DNA of 64,000 bases. Origin: Sphingobacteriaceae bacterium. GTDB lineage: Bacteria; Bacteroidota; Bacteroidia; UBA7662. Below, piece by piece: positions 24,871 through 30,512 of the stretch. The notes beneath the pieces are model-generated. The model searched no databases, was not told where the DNA came from, and worked only from the letters and a program-made list of their open reading frames with translations. Location: NCBI GenBank assembly GCA_030682795.1, contig JAUXNJ010000012.1, positions 62,001 to 126,000 of the forward strand, in the 5' to 3' direction. The position numbers and the translations under genes are program-made. Within the stretch, counting starts at the first letter, position 1; the number at the start of each line of letters is the position of its first letter.

Positions 24871-25956
24871 CTATGAACTTTGGTTGGGTATGTTTAATTC
24901 AAAAGTACTACCCTGACCATATATCGATTCCACTGTGATGCTCCCGGCGAGTTGTTCAACCGCATCTTTAACGATGTAAAGACCAATGCCAGAGCCTGGA
25001 TTCATATTCGTAGCGCGATAAAACATTCTAAATATCTTTTCAACTTCTCCTTCTTTAATGCCGATGCCATTATCAGCAATTCGGATCGTTGCTTTTTGCG
25101 CATCCACTTTGATATCGATACTTACTTGTTTTTCTGTTTTGTTATGGTCCTGATACTTAATGCCATTGCTGATTAAATTGCTCAGGGCTATGCCGAGTTT
25201 GAGTTTATCTGAAACAAAACTTTGTTTTTGGTCGATGTTAATCTTGAAATTCAAGTCTGTTTCTTCCAAGTGGAGTTGGTTTTGAATACAAAAGTCAACC
25301 ATGTCCTTGAAATCTATTTCAGAAGGATGGAAGCTGTTTCTTTTATTTCTGTAATAATCGATGATGCTTTTGATGAATCCGTCTAAACGTTCAACGCTTT
25401 CCTCGATCATACTAAAGTAGGCCTTGGTATTGGTAAAATCTCCCTCCATACGCGCCAATTTTACCACACCTAAAATGCTCATCAGGGGTGAACGCATATC
25501 ATGCGAAGCACTGTACACGAATTTATCAAGTTCAGAATAGGCAAGTTCCAATTCTTTGTTTTTAATCACCAATTGCGCTCTGGTCTGGTAAATCTCATAA
25601 GCTTGGGTAATAGCAGTTCTTATTTCCTCCTCTTTCCAAGGCTTTTGAAGGTATCGAAACACATTTCCTAAATTTACGGCATTTATTACAGCTTGAATAT
25701 CGGTGTAACCTGTAAGCAGGATACGCATCACTTGAGGATGTGTCGACATGATTGACTCGAAAAACTCAATGCCGGTTTCTTTGGGCATCCGTTGATCAGC
25801 AATCACAATGGGTATCTGATGGTTGCGAAGTAATTGGCGGGCTTCTTCGGCACTTTCTGCAATAAATACCTCGTATTCTAATCTGAACGTGGCTCTGAAG
25901 GCATACAAGTTATGCCTTTCATCATCAATGTATAGTACGGCTATTTTACCCATCAT
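24871..25956 (-). CDS. receiver-histidine kinase hybrid (REC-HisKA-HATPase)
   Basis: A 361-residue cytoplasmic signalling protein with no membrane helix. The N-terminal receiver domain has acidic D11/D12, phospho-acceptor D54 (VIADQRMP), T82 (LLTGY) and K105 (QKPW). A helical linker then leads to HisKA with H152 (SASHDMRSPL). The ATPase carries LSNLISNGIKY, DNGIGI and GSGIGLYIV. The order input-receiver then kinase suggests phosphorelay from another kinase, most simply the one encoded just upstream. Its ATG overlaps that gene's TGA by one base (TGATG). The receiver closely resembles the separate regulator at 30048-30512. Confidence 0.9.
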   Translation of the reverse strand: MMGKIAVLYIDDERHNLYAFRATFRLEYEVFIAESAEEARQLLRNHQIPIVIADQRMPKETGIEFFESIMSTHPQVMRILLTGYTDIQAVINAVNLGNVFRYLQKPWKEEEIRTAITQAYEIYQTRAQLVIKNKELELAYSELDKFVYSASHDMRSPLMSILGVVKLARMEGDFTNTKAYFSMIEESVERLDGFIKSIIDYYRNKRNSFHPSEIDFKDMVDFCIQNQLHLEETDLNFKINIDQKQSFVSDKLKLGIALSNLISNGIKYQDHNKTEKQVSIDIKVDAQKATIRIADNGIGIKEGEVEKIFRMFYRATNMNPGSGIGLYIVKDAVEQLAGSITVESIYGQGSTFELNIPNQSS

Positions 25957-28091
25957 CACCTTTGATATTTTGGTAAATCTATTGAAAAAATAGTGCCTTT
26001 ATCAATTTCAGAGGTTACTTTGATGCTCCCTTTATGCAATTCAATGATGCTGTAAACTATCGAAAGTCCAAGCCCAGTGCCTTGTCCCACGCCTTTGGTG
26101 GTGAAAAATGGATCGAAAATTTTGGCACAAACCTCTTCACTCATACCTTTGCCTGTGTCTGAAATGGTAATGTTTATAGATTCAGGCAGGGCTTTGGTGG
26201 TAATGCTGAGGGTCCCCGACTTTTTCTCGCTGTCAACTAACATGGCATGGATTGCATTGTTGGCAATGTTCATAATCACCTGATTGAGCTTACCAGGATA
26301 GCACTCCAAATAAGCATCAGGATCATAGTTTTTGACTACCTGTATCCGGTTGGCCATGGAGCTATTGAGAAGCACCAGGGTGCTATCGATGCCTTCGTTG
26401 AGGTCGACCTTTTTTAAGTCGCTTTCATCAAGTCTAGAAAAAATACGTAAACCCTTTACAATTTCCGCCGTGCGATTAGCCCCTTCACCAATCCCATTGA
26501 GCAACATTTTGATTTCTTCTTTGAGATAATCAAAGTCGATTTCTTTTTTGAAAGCCAATACTTTGTCAAAGTGGTGTTTATCGTGCGTCAGCTCTTCTTG
26601 CAGCTGATCGTAAACATTGATCAAGGCGAAAATATCTTCCATATCTCGCTTGAGTGGCACCACATTGGAAGTAACAAAGTTGATGGGATTGTTGATTTCA
26701 TGGGCAATACCCGCAGTTAATTGACCTAAGGAAGCCATTTTTTCGGCATTTACCAATTGTGTTTGGGCGCTTTTAAGGTTTGTTAAAGTATACTCTAGTT
26801 CTTTGTTAGTGCTTTCCAAGGCAGAGGTACGCTCTTTCACCTTGGCTTCGAGCAATACATTTTGCTGGGTAATGAGTACTGCATTTTCTTCGGCCGTGCG
26901 CAATGCCTCTGCTTGAGAGGCTTCTTTTTCTCTCTTGAGAATGTTGATGCGGTCAGCCAAGGCAACGCTCAGCAATACCGACTCCACGCCGGAACCCATC
27001 AATAATACGTTTTTGGTGAAAAAATTATACGGCAACCAGCCGAGATTACGAGCAACGTACACGAACATCCCGATCATAAAAAACGACCATGCTAAAAGAA
27101 AAAATTTAGCCGTACGCTGGCCAGCAATACTTAGTTTGATAGAGAAAAACAGGGCGTACAACGAAAGTAGCAAGGCCGCAATATCCAATAGGTTGTAGCT
27201 CAATTGATCTAGGCCCAAAAGGTAGACCAATAAAGCTGCGCCATATAGAAACTCAAATACTGTTAATCCTTTGCTTATTTTGGGCAATTGTTTATCGAGT
27301 TGCAGAAAAATACGCGCAAATTGAATGGCGCCATAACCTGCAATAGCACTGAAAATGAGTACCGCTAAGTGGTTCAAATAGCTGTTTTCAGGCCAGAAGT
27401 ATTTGTAAGTATAGCCCAGTAAGGTGGCTTGTGCCAACGCTATGCTGAGGATGTAGAGCACATAAAAGAGATAGCTCTTGTCTTTTACACTGATGTAAAT
27501 GAATAGGTTATAAAAAAACATCACAAACATGATCCCGAAATAGGTGCCGGCGAAAATGTCTGTTCGGTAATTGTTGGTTAAAACAACTTCTCGCTTGCCA
27601 ATGCTTAAGGGTAAACTAAGTTGCTCCATCGATTGAAAACGCAAATAAATTGTGGCTTGCTGTTTTTTTAATAGCGAGAATGGAAAGATGAAGTGTTGAT
27701 GATTAATAGCTCTTTGTGAGTAAGGCAATAAATCACCCATTTGGGTGTGGGTGTAGGACAGCCCATGAGGCACATAGAAATCAATGCGATCGAGCTGTGT
27801 GTTGCTTACCTCTAAGGCTAAGTCTTCGCTGGAGGTGTTGTTGTAAAGCTGAAATCGTACCCAGTAGGCCGATTTGGTGTATTGAAAATTGGGGACCTCT
27901 ACAGTGCTTTTTTGGAAAGCATCTCCTTTGGCAATTACTTGCGCTAAATCCAAATCCCCGCTAGGGTCTTCTAAAAACTCAAGCTGCATGCCAATCACAA
28001 AGGGCTTTTGGCCTTCCTCAAGCACAATGGTTTGGCCTTTCACTGGGCTAGTGAAACAGAGTAAAAAGAGGAATAAGACCACTTTATTCAC
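25956..28091 (-). CDS. 7TMR-DISM sensor histidine kinase
   Basis: A 711-residue membrane receptor kinase. Residues 1-19 are a signal peptide. About 25-170 is a periplasmic DISMED2-type beta domain, a class thought to bind small ligands such as carbohydrates. About 180-390 holds seven membrane helices (7TMR-DISM). A coiled coil (about 395-450) joins to HisKA with H464 in [12 protein letters not shown], and the ATPase has [21 protein letters not shown] and [12 protein letters not shown]. The start is GTG at 28089-28091, two bases after the stop of the acyltransferase-like gene, and the end overlaps the hybrid kinase. Ligand unknown. Confidence 0.9.
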
Positions 28092-28093
28092 AG

Positions 28094-28828
28094 CTAAAAT
28101 ATTTTGAATTCGTTTGGATCCACATTTTTCAGCTGGAGATCGTAATGTATTTCAACTTCCATTTGTCGGATGGGAGATACTTCTGTATACACTTGCTGGA
28201 GATTTTTTCGAATATCAAAAATGCGCACTTGTTCGGCAGGTTCGGCTTGCTGGATGGTTTGAGCATCTTCTAAAAGCACAATTGTTGCAAGTAAATCGAG
28301 TTTCGGATAGTAAAAAGTGCCGTTATTGCCAATGCTTTTGAGCACCCTGCATCCCACTTTTTCAGCAAATTTGACAGTATAGGGTGCGCACAAAGCAAAA
28401 ATACTTTCAACACCCAGCTGTTCGGCAATCACAACCCCAACCCGGGTCGAAAAAAAGGCACCTATGCCCAAGCCTGATACTTCCCTTGAATTCCACAGGC
28501 CGCAGAGCTCTGCAGTGCCATGGATGCTTTTTTCGCGAACCACATCGTAAATACGGACATCAAATTCACCAGCTGCTTGCTCAATAGGCAAGGGCTGATT
28601 ACCGCCACTACATTGTAATCTTGCACCACCCAAAACCTTGCTACCATCTTCATTTTCAACAAGGATTACAAAACTGGCAGGATTGTTTATCCAGTCGTGA
28701 TTGGCTGAGGTCACCTTTTTAACGCCAGCAACCTCTAATACATGCGCATGCCCTTCAATGAATCGCTCACATGCAACGGAATCATCCGTAGCCCTAAATG
28801 CTCTTATTTTAATGCTATTCAGGACCAT
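28094..28828 (-). CDS. GNAT-fold / autoinducer-synthase-like acyltransferase (putative)
   Basis: A 244-residue soluble protein without a clear named family. The core resembles GNAT/LuxI-type acyltransferases. It has an N-terminal IRAFRATDD strand-helix, a FVILVENEDGSKVLGGARLQ strand pair, and AELCGLWNSREVSGLGIG with the acidic residue and Gly-rich turn expected at the acyl-CoA pyrophosphate site. A helix then leads into GVESIFALCAP and FAEKVGCRVL. The C-terminal 70 residues are extra and unknown. Its start overlaps the stop of the E1-like gene (TAATG), and the sensor kinase begins two bases after its stop. Substrate unknown; the name is from pattern only. Confidence 0.55.
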   Translation of the reverse strand: MVLNSIKIRAFRATDDSVACERFIEGHAHVLEVAGVKKVTSANHDWINNPASFVILVENEDGSKVLGGARLQCSGGNQPLPIEQAAGEFDVRIYDVVREKSIHGTAELCGLWNSREVSGLGIGAFFSTRVGVVIAEQLGVESIFALCAPYTVKFAEKVGCRVLKSIGNNGTFYYPKLDLLATIVLLEDAQTIQQAEPAEQVRIFDIRKNLQQVYTEVSPIRQMEVEIHYDLQLKNVDPNEFKIF

Positions 28829-29931
28829 TAAGCTTGCAAGTTTGGAACGATGGCGTTCATATCTACATAAAACCTTCCGGATGAAACGCGTTCTCCCAAC
28901 AAAATTCTTCTGGCAATTTCGGCAGTAGTACCCCCACCCATCATTACAGCCGAAGCCAGTTGCGGCCAGGTATTGAGCGACTTTCCAATTTCTAAATAAG
29001 AACGCCGGAGACTTTCAGATACCTCGTCAAAGCCAACGATTGCCATTAATAGTTGCATGCGCTTTTCAGGGGGCATATCGCCAGGATTAGAAATGTCAAA
29101 CCCGGCTATTCGGCCATGAAAAAGGGGTAAATCGGTGATTAAATCAAAACGCTCAATGTCTAACATACCACGGTCACTTGTTTCCATGAGCACGGGTAGG
29201 TGGTGTTTTTTAGCAGCAAGCCGGAGTTTGAGTTTGTATTCTAAACTGTCACACTCATCAATGAGGAGGTCTAAACCACCTTGATCAGTAATGAATGCTT
29301 CTATATTTTCGTCTGTGACGCCTTCTACCAAGACTTCTACCTTTAAAAAAGGGTCCATTTCAGCAATTTCCCTGGCCACAATAACCGCTTTGTTTAAGCC
29401 AATATCGCTGATACGTGCCCGCAGGCGGTTTAAATTGCTCAAATCCAAGGTATCAAAATCGGCGAGCACCAAGCTGCCAAAACTGCGCTCCATGGCCATG
29501 GTAAGGGCTATGGCACTGCCTACCGACAAGCCTACGATGCCCACACGCTTTTCGCTGAGCAATTGCTGCGCTGCTTCAGTGATTTTGTATTTGTTGCGAG
29601 AGGTGCGAAGCTCAACAAACTCCTGCTCATCTAACACATGTACCAGGCGCTTGCACCAAGGATAAAGTACCCAAACACCATATTCATGTATCCCAAACCC
29701 GTTTAATTGAGTAGTTATGGCAGCCGCAAGCTCGTTTTCTGCGAAAGTAACACCAGGATTTCGGGTAATAATGAGTTCTTTTAATTGCCTCGGTAGGCTG
29801 TCTTGTATTTGGAGGTCAGGGTCGCTCACAACCAGATTGAAAGCGTCGGCTTCATCCTCCTTGTAAATGCGAAAGAAGATAGGGGAAAAGCTATTCGGCT
29901 CGGCCCCGCTTCTGTAATCCAGGTAGTCCAT
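28828..29931 (-). CDS. ThiF/E1-like adenylating enzyme
   Basis: A 367-residue protein with an E1/ThiF/MoeB-type Rossmann domain at about residues 125-300. The ATP loop is VGIVGLSVGSAIAL (about 130-143), followed by VLADFDTLDLSNLNRLR with the conserved Asp and Arg finger, a GLNKA motif and the IDECDS strand end. The two CxxC zinc pairs of ThiF/MoeB are missing and no catalytic cysteine is evident. The N-terminal 120 residues are unlike ThiF. They recall the N-terminal part of Rv1355c-type proteins, but here without the nitroreductase domain. It leads a four-gene overlapping operon with an acyltransferase-like protein and two kinases. Confidence 0.75.
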   Translation of the reverse strand: MDYLDYRSGAEPNSFSPIFFRIYKEDEADAFNLVVSDPDLQIQDSLPRQLKELIITRNPGVTFAENELAAAITTQLNGFGIHEYGVWVLYPWCKRLVHVLDEQEFVELRTSRNKYKITEAAQQLLSEKRVGIVGLSVGSAIALTMAMERSFGSLVLADFDTLDLSNLNRLRARISDIGLNKAVIVAREIAEMDPFLKVEVLVEGVTDENIEAFITDQGGLDLLIDECDSLEYKLKLRLAAKKHHLPVLMETSDRGMLDIERFDLITDLPLFHGRIAGFDISNPGDMPPEKRMQLLMAIVGFDEVSESLRRSYLEIGKSLNTWPQLASAVMMGGGTTAEIARRILLGERVSSGRFYVDMNAIVPNLQA

Positions 29932-30022
29932 GTGAATGTAGTGATCAATTGCGGCAAGCAGAAATCGAAAGCAATATAGAGATTGATTAAATAATTCCTG
30001 TTATGGTTATCAGGATAAAGTT

Positions 30023-30030
30023 TATTTTTG
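30023..30030 (+). promoter_or_regulatory. -7 element for the stand-alone response regulator
   Basis: TATTTTTG matches TANNTTTG and lies 17 bases before the ATG at 30048. No good -33 TTTG is present. It sits in the divergent spacer shared with the E1-like operon. Confidence 0.35.
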
Positions 30031-30047
30031 AACCAAATAGCCCAATC

Positions 30048-30512
30048 ATGTCAGAAGATAAACTCAGCGTACTCTATGTAGACGACGAAGTAAACAACCT
30101 GCAATCTTTCAAGGCAGCTTTTCGTCGTGATTTTTTAATTTACACTGCAGAATCTGCCAAAGAAGGCATGAAGATTTTGAGTGAAATGCCTATTGAGGTG
30201 ATTATCACCGACCAGCGCATGCCTGAAATGACTGGCGTGGAGTTTTTGGAGTCGATTATACCCCAATACCCAGATCCTATTCGCATCTTATTAACTGGTT
30301 ATAGCGACATCCAAGCGGTGATCGACGCCATCAACAAAGGCCAGGTTTATCATTATATTACCAAGCCTTGGGATGAAGAGCAATTGCGCAACATCATTAA
30401 AAAATCTCTGGAGGTTTATACACTTCGGGCCGAAAACAAAGAGCTTATCAAGAGTTTGTTGCGTGCCAATGAGCAGCTTGAGTTTTTGCTCAGACAAAAA
30501 TTACTCTCCTGA
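30048..30512 (+). CDS. stand-alone response regulator with C-terminal coiled coil
   Basis: A 154-residue protein. The receiver domain (about residues 5-120) has D12/D13, phospho-acceptor D55 (VIITDQRMP), T83 (LLTGY) and K106 (ITKPW). A helical tail of about 30 residues rich in Glu, Leu and Asn follows, without DNA-binding or enzymatic output. The receiver shares the RILLTGY-S/T-DIQAV signature with the hybrid kinase 5 kb away, so the two look like paralogues in one circuit. It is transcribed divergently from the E1-like operon. Its last 12 bases overlap the 3' end of the convergent gene. Confidence 0.9.
   Translation: MSEDKLSVLYVDDEVNNLQSFKAAFRRDFLIYTAESAKEGMKILSEMPIEVIITDQRMPEMTGVEFLESIIPQYPDPIRILLTGYSDIQAVIDAINKGQVYHYITKPWDEEQLRNIIKKSLEVYTLRAENKELIKSLLRANEQLEFLLRQKLLS

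Follow-up and report, generated by a model that had tools for sequence, protein, structure and literature searches.

Five genes at one locus and the proteins they encode

We analyzed a 64,000-nucleotide stretch of DNA from a Sphingobacteriaceae bacterium (contig JAUXNJ010000012.1, positions 62,001 to 126,000; this whole stretch is called the window), in which five genes bring an E1-like enzyme and an acyltransferase together with a receptor-type kinase, a hybrid kinase and a response regulator. An initial annotation of this DNA had described four abutting or overlapping minus-strand genes and a divergent receiver gene, and the open reading frame (ORF) list and the sequence bore this out in every detail. 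The E1-like and acyltransferase genes overlap at TAATG (minus strand, ...GCTTAATGGTC), the TAG stop of the acyltransferase gene is followed after 2 bases by the GTG start of the sensor kinase gene, and the sensor and hybrid kinase genes overlap at TGATG (minus strand, ...AGGTGATGATGGG). The features are as follows.

24871..25959, minus strand: hybrid kinase, receiver (N terminus)-HisKA-HATPase (Response_reg 1.3e-18, HisKA 3.2e-10, HATPase_c 1.3e-23)
25956..28091, minus strand: 7TMR-DISM sensor histidine kinase, the predicted receptor (PF07696 2.3e-38, PF07695 6.1e-49)
28094..28828, minus strand: autoinducer-synthase-type N-acyltransferase of the GNAT superfold (AlphaFold2 model and PDB fold matches)
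28828..29931, minus strand: E1/ThiF-like cyclase (Rv1355c/TrzS family) that lacks the nitroreductase (FDO) half at the C terminus (NCBIfam NF005901)
29932..30002, no strand: divergent intergenic region between E1 and receiver genes, presumably carrying the promoters of both (sequence)
30003..30512, plus strand: stand-alone response regulator, a receiver with a conserved coiled tail (Pfam Response_reg 4e-20)

The TGATG overlap makes 25956 the probable start of the hybrid kinase rather than the GTG at 25959, and the receiver probably starts at 30048 rather than 30003, because its homologues are 151-157 amino acids (aa) long.

The E1-like protein had been called an adenylating enzyme. Pfam confirmed a ThiF domain, and the ATP site and the adenylation residues of the ThiF fold are intact; more exactly, however, the protein belongs with the oxazolone-forming cyclases of the TrzS family. 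It matched NF005901, the Rv1355c family, at 7.1e-129 and 431 bits over profile positions 6-342 of 722, which is the N-terminal half, and missed the full-model cut-off of 476 because the C-terminal half is absent from the window protein. G134-G138, D158, D160, N168, R169, K181, C227 and D228 are invariant in eleven E1 homologues. C93 and C227 are the only cysteines, just one of them invariant, and there is no CxxC motif. Rv1355c is TrzS, which with TrzA converts N-acyl-tryptophan to N-acyl tryptazolone by cyclization and then desaturation, and the cyclized saturated intermediate builds up when the oxidase part of TrzS is inactivated or short of O2 (PMC12856293). No nitroreductase-type, flavin-dependent oxidase was found fused to the window E1 or in its neighborhood, and the one nitroreductase of the host genome is a generic 224-aa protein on another contig. 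The window E1 is predicted to adenylate the carboxylate of an N-acyl amino acid and to close the oxazolone ring. Because the protein ends after the cyclase half, its expected product would be a saturated N-acyl oxazolone, or an N-acyl amino acid after hydrolysis.

The acyltransferase had no significant match in Pfam or NCBIfam, including the Pfam autoinducer synthase family, so that its identity rests on its predicted fold. We modeled it with AlphaFold2 from a nine-sequence alignment (predicted local distance difference test, pLDDT, 86). A sequence search against solved structures gave no match, and only the fold search did: the closest PDB folds were the N-acyl homoserine lactone (AHL) synthases BjaI, MesI and RpaI (E 1.9e-7), the N-acyl amino acid synthase FeeM was also among the top folds (TM score up to 0.76 by target), and matches to other GNATs were weaker. 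Sequence identity to the LuxI/BjaI and FeeM structures (PDB 5w8e, 2g0b) was 11-16%; thus the AHL-synthase fold is present and membership of the LuxI sequence family is absent. FeeM and BjaI were also reported as the structures closest to TyzA (PMC10404671). From the model, the acyltransferase is predicted to be an N-acyl amino acid synthase and to form part of the core of the cassette.

The sensor kinase consists of a periplasmic beta-sandwich (residues 36-164), a seven-transmembrane (7TM) region (179-381) and HisKA/HATPase domains (about 440-711). The 7TMR-DISMED2, 7TMR-DISM_7TM and HATPase_c domains scored above the curated cut-offs, and HisKA reached 23.4 bits against a cut-off of 26.9. Its model (pLDDT 88) shows the beta-sandwich and seven helices, preceded by an N-terminal helix that would fit a signal peptide, and the ectodomain matches the fold of the RetS sensor domain (E 1.7e-8). 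Over its whole length the model also gave a weak Foldseek match to human Wntless, a protein with a beta-domain and a 7TM region that carries lipidated Wnt; at E 4.7e-5 and a TM score of about 0.3 we considered this likeness too weak as a sign of lipid binding and did not use it. Pfam found no DNA-binding domain in the stand-alone receiver, so it must have a partner that lies elsewhere than at this locus. The receiver and its homologues end in a strongly conserved tail, QLEFLLRQKLLS, likely a docking peptide.

Recurrence of the cassette and its exchangeable tailoring enzyme

Among 60 genomes, ten relatives bear the E1 gene, with the same genes around it in differing genomic contexts. We then measured recurrence with profile searches for E1 and acyltransferase in 395 genomes drawn evenly from Bacteroidota. 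E1 was found in 11 genomes and the acyltransferase in 13; acyltransferase and DISM kinase adjoin E1 in 11/11, and the synthase adjoins a DISM kinase in 13/13. This is the neighborhood recurrence that the initial annotation had proposed as its check, and the absence of co-occurrence between enzymes and kinases that it had named as grounds for refutation was not what we found. The acyltransferase profile was also run on 216 genomes of one family, where 65 were positive; in all 63 loci fetched, mostly of that family, a DISM kinase adjoins the acyltransferase. These two scans give the unbiased rates. A further 80 loci, in named genomes (Pedobacter, Mucilaginibacter, Parapedobacter, Chitinophaga, Dyadobacter, Algoriphagus, Daejeonella and others), were themselves selected for their likeness to the E1s of cassettes, and this selection biases the rate of co-occurrence among them. 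In these and seven fetched loci, all five genes are present in 63 of 87, several others being cut by contig ends; gene order varies, and 55 of the 87 E1s carry a nitroreductase half. When all fetched loci are pooled, the kinase accompanies the acyltransferase in 147 of 152; of the five others, four are truncated at contig ends and one, L074, carries a distant acyltransferase. The nitroreductase-type oxidase is present in 81 of these 152 cassettes, and the divergent response regulator in most complete ones.

Because further families of the phylum also have the cassette, in unrelated flanking contexts, the arrangement is far from chance. That an enzyme pair and a two-component system merely lie side by side with no functional link has, in our judgment, practically no probability: each gene family does occur elsewhere too, but the genes recur together in several families with altered order and unrelated flanks, and the adjacency is complete in both scans although a genome has only about 5-30 DISM-like first-look candidates.

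The E1 position itself is variable. In the two acyltransferase-bearing genomes of the 395 that lack E1, an ICMT-family carboxyl methyltransferase (PF04140, to 1.5e-19) takes its slot. In the 63 loci of the one-family scan the slot holds an E1-nitroreductase (24), E1 alone (12), ICMT (9), a class I S-adenosylmethionine (SAM) methyltransferase (4) or an FAD-linked oxidase (2); it is empty in 8 and cut by contig ends in 4. Because this slot varies while 147 of 152 acyltransferases keep the kinase, the predicted core of the cassette is the synthase plus the receptor, and E1 is, on gene content, one of several interchangeable tailoring enzymes. Cyclization and methylation would both remove the charge of the carboxylate.

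Individual loci vary further. The class I SAM methyltransferases are in L143, L145, L148 and L158, three of which have no hybrid kinase and place a receiver after the DISM kinase; the FAD_binding_4 oxidases, of about 535 aa, are at L161:7184-8800 (-) and L169:9578-11185 (+). L170 contains two tandem acyltransferases in a single cassette (G526:C4:69313-71259), perhaps two signals for one receptor. An extra small receiver gene (about 125-150 aa) lies directly 3' of the hybrid kinase at L032:3198-3608, L037:2000-2377 and L161:3471-3866, as well as in L172, L183, L188 and L194, and is a candidate additional output element. In two Dyadobacter loci (L096:9203-11137, L103:9102-11101), E1 lies beside a different acyltransferase, with a weak Acetyltransf_5 match in one, and no kinase. 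A Saprospiraceae metagenome-assembled genome encodes an E1-acyltransferase fusion in a 632-aa ORF (L126:6409-8307, +) with no DISM kinase within the locus, and this fusion would count as Rosetta-type support for the link between E1 and synthase. On a contig binned as Patescibacteria (L084:9923-13998, +), an E1-nitroreductase gene is followed by another 7TM kinase (HisKA_7TM, PF16927), possibly an independent link of an oxazolone synthase to a membrane kinase. In Brevibacillus borstelensis (L121:9058-11071, +), a close E1 homologue lies behind an unrecognized 283-aa ORF, and the gene of a PAS kinase lies upstream of that by another 1 kb or so.

Co-variation of synthase and sensor

We compared the parts of 126 non-redundant cassettes, between species rather than strains. 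Mean identity was 22% for the ectodomain, 39% for the 7TM region, 43% for the acyltransferase, 46% for the hybrid kinase and 55% for the kinase half of the sensor. In syntenic pairs of close, often congeneric relatives, identity was 75-93% for the response regulator, 77-86% for the kinase and 78-93% for the hybrid kinase, and 20-31% for the ectodomain, 35-43% for the 7TM region and mostly 32-64% for the synthase (78% in one pair). For example, Parapedobacter soli and P. pyrenivorans share flanking genes at 68-98%, the response regulator at 89%, the kinase at 82% and the hybrid kinase at 83%, with the acyltransferase at 44%, E1 at 48%, the 7TM region at 38% and the ectodomain at 20%. In the seven pairs examined, identity along the sensor changed abruptly at residue 380-400, so that residues 1 to about 385 are part of the variable block.

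Close pairs were defined as those in which kinase and hybrid kinase are both 72% identical or more. Fifty of the 103 such pairs were swapped (7TM below 48%; acyltransferase at 51%) and 41 un-swapped (acyltransferase at 80%), and 9 of the 15 groups of relatives included swapped pairs. Over the 103 pairs, the acyltransferase co-varied with the ectodomain (rho 0.79, matched by none of 2000 within-group permutations) and the 7TM region (0.72), and less with the kinase (0.41) and the hybrid kinase (0.40); E1 co-varied with the 7TM region (rho 0.76). On trees built from equal numbers of columns, tailoring type changed 21.7 times for the 7TM region, 27.2 for the ectodomain, 29.7 for the acyltransferase, 33.5 for the hybrid kinase and 34.4 for the kinase. 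The kinase tree is less resolved, the kinase being more conserved, but hybrid kinase and acyltransferase have diverged to about the same degree. As to which part of the sensor binds a ligand, the count of tailoring types favors the 7TM region and the correlation with the synthase favors the ectodomain.

These sequence comparisons suggest that tailoring enzyme, synthase and sensor are replaced as a unit, with the kinase output conserved, and this appears to have happened many times among relatives living in soil and water. By analogy with ComQXPA and agr, joint replacement of sensor and synthase with a sharp breakpoint reads as the signature of pheromone-type specificity switching.

A proposed signaling circuit and its relation to known systems

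What is observed is the gene content, the families and folds of the proteins, the recurrence, the exchange of enzymes, the co-variation of synthase and sensor and the breakpoint. The reading that we favor, and consider quite probable for this locus, is an N-acyl-amino-acid autoinducer circuit that has its own receptor kinase and in which the tailoring chemistry can be swapped. The acyltransferase would N-acylate an amino acid with a fatty-acyl group, and the E1-like cyclase would activate the carboxylate with ATP and close it to an oxazolone. The neutral, lipid-like product could reach the membrane or periplasm, where the 7TMR-DISM kinase would sense it through its beta-sandwich, its 7TM region or both. 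Phosphate would then pass to the receiver-containing hybrid kinase and the stand-alone receiver, which may act through protein contacts rather than DNA binding. Exchange of the tailoring enzyme and block replacement would give rise to chemically distinct communication groups. The wider proposal, which we regard as likely, though with somewhat more reserve, is a phylum-wide Bacteroidota autoinducer family in which a LuxI/FeeM-fold synthase is paired with a dedicated 7TMR-DISM kinase, exchangeable tailoring sets the chemotypes, synthase and sensor are replaced together, and acyl-oxazolones serve as signals. Of the features expected in a quorum-sensing circuit, linkage of synthase and receptor genes across lineages and co-variation of synthase and sensor with a conserved output domain are found, the latter in relatives, and a DNA-binding response regulator in the locus is not, the regulator being receiver-only.

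Several points weigh against this circuit. Ligand or substrate, product, secretion, binding, phosphotransfer route and output are all inferred. Oxazolone synthase genes also occur without kinases, in mycobacterial trzAS, the two Dyadobacter loci and the Saprospiraceae fusion locus. Shared recombination tracts of a fast-evolving operon could partly yield the correlation of synthase and sensor without direct binding, and no swap separates the window copy from its nearest relative, the swapping being seen in other relatives. DISM ectodomains resemble carbohydrate-binding modules, the Pseudomonas 7TMR-DISM-type sensor SagS reportedly responds to glucose-6-phosphate (PMC8544897), and tryptazolones are reported to be mainly associated with the cell pellet, not the supernatant (PMC12856293). 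Since the receiver has no output domain, density-dependent control cannot be claimed. The proposal of the initial annotation that the operon both makes and detects a small molecule therefore gains strong support from recurrence, folds and co-variation, and its secretion and detection are still presumed.

Regulated biosynthesis without self-sensing, in which the kinases sense an external cue (a glycan, the state of the envelope, a host lipid) and turn on an N-acyl amino acid or oxazolone as a surfactant, antibiotic or membrane lipid, is unlikely but deserves attention. It accords with the carbohydrate-binding-module-like fold of the ectodomain, with the antimicrobial N-acyl tyrosines of Stieleria (PMC12479983) and with the proposal that oxazolones link stress cues to adaptation (PMC12856293), but fails to predict that sensor and synthase are replaced jointly while kinase and hybrid kinase are kept, or that sensor trees track tailoring type better than kinase trees. 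We give a very small chance to intracellular lipid homeostasis, where the product is a lipid of the cell's membrane and the 7TM receptor measures how much of it that membrane contains, not how much passes between cells: the repeated replacement of synthase and sensor in concert looks more like pheromone specificity groups, even if the tryptazolones are enriched in cells relative to the supernatant (PMC12856293), the 7TM region tracks tailoring chemistry best and the sensor has its weak whole-length match to Wntless.

More improbable still is modification of a carrier, the other option of the initial annotation, in which, governed by the kinases, E1 would adenylate a protein that is ubiquitin-like or a carrier and the acyltransferase would modify that protein, a reading that takes in anti-phage E1-E2-like systems. 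The intact adenylation residues would suit it, and PADLOC E1-E2 models do match the window E1, but weakly, at best 2e-11 as against 7.1e-129 for the Rv1355c family. No small carrier-protein ORF was seen in the window cassette, the cysteine content described above is poor, and E1 can be replaced by methyltransferases, an FAD oxidase or nothing. An E1 for ubiquitin-like proteins or S-carriers, an E1-E2 system and a CBASS-type defense were rejected because of the cysteine content, the scores against the families and the exchange of the enzyme.

Soil, water and guts all harbor abundant Bacteroidota, yet to our knowledge the phylum has no well-established pair of synthase and receptor for a small-molecule signal. 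What N-acyl oxazolones do physiologically has been described as a major unresolved question (PMC12856293), and a receptor that is genetically linked to the synthase and changes with it makes this question directly testable. The cassettes also provide, ready-made in nature, signal-receptor pairs that would differ in chemistry, among them close relatives whose kinases are nearly the same and whose sensors and tailoring enzymes differ.

The initial annotation knew of no described pathway of this composition. The pathway of an acyltransferase with a ThiF-like enzyme is described, as OxzAB, TyzABC and TrzAS; its linkage to a receptor kinase is not, as far as our literature search goes, which found nothing connecting this enzyme pair to 7TMR-DISM kinases (the OxzAB discovery paper lay outside the search). 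Like the cassette, TrzAS, TyzABC and OxzAB (PMC12856293, PMC10404671) have an Rv1355c-family ThiF-like cyclase beside a FeeM/BjaI-like N-acyltransferase. A fused oxidase of the nitroreductase type is common to many Bacteroidota homologues as well and lacking in the window copy, and no signaling partner has been reported for the known systems, whereas the cassette adds a 7TMR-DISM kinase, a hybrid kinase and a receiver, and its tailoring enzyme is exchangeable or absent.

The agr system of Staphylococcus links signal genes to a polytopic sensor kinase whose sensor region co-varies with them and whose kinase domain is conserved, and forms specificity groups. ComQXPA of Bacillus (PMC4008528, PMC4408185) resembles the cassette in the same way: signal genes are linked to a polytopic sensor kinase, signal genes co-vary with the N-terminal sensor and the kinase domain stays conserved, and there are specificity groups; the part of ComP in contact with the signal, its N-terminal sensor domain, varies far more than the cytoplasmic part (PMC4008528), and comQ is strongly polymorphic (PMC4408185). 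Unlike these two systems, the cassette would use a small-molecule N-acyl amino acid rather than a peptide, belongs to a Gram-negative phylum and has a receiver without a DNA-binding domain. In LuxM-LuxN and CqsA-CqsS of Vibrio, an acyl-derived small signal is read by a membrane histidine kinase, as proposed here, but synthase and sensor folds are unrelated to those of the cassette, the relay differs and there is no exchangeable tailoring slot. The predicted acyltransferase fold is shared with the LuxI/BjaI AHL synthases and FeeM, from which the cassette differs in its low sequence identity, the missing Pfam autoinducer-synthase match and a receptor that is a kinase, not LuxR. RetS-type 7TMR-DISM kinases share the DISMED2 ectodomain fold and the 7TM-DISM domain with the sensor, which differs in being encoded with, and co-varying with, a signal-type synthase. 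Taken together, the chemistry of the oxazolone-synthase family, the 7TMR-DISM receptor family and the logic of a linked synthase and sensor kinase with specificity groups are known; what appears new, as none of it was found in the literature search, is that these are combined, that the combination is spread through Bacteroidota, that its tailoring slot is exchangeable and that synthase and sensor form a mosaic.

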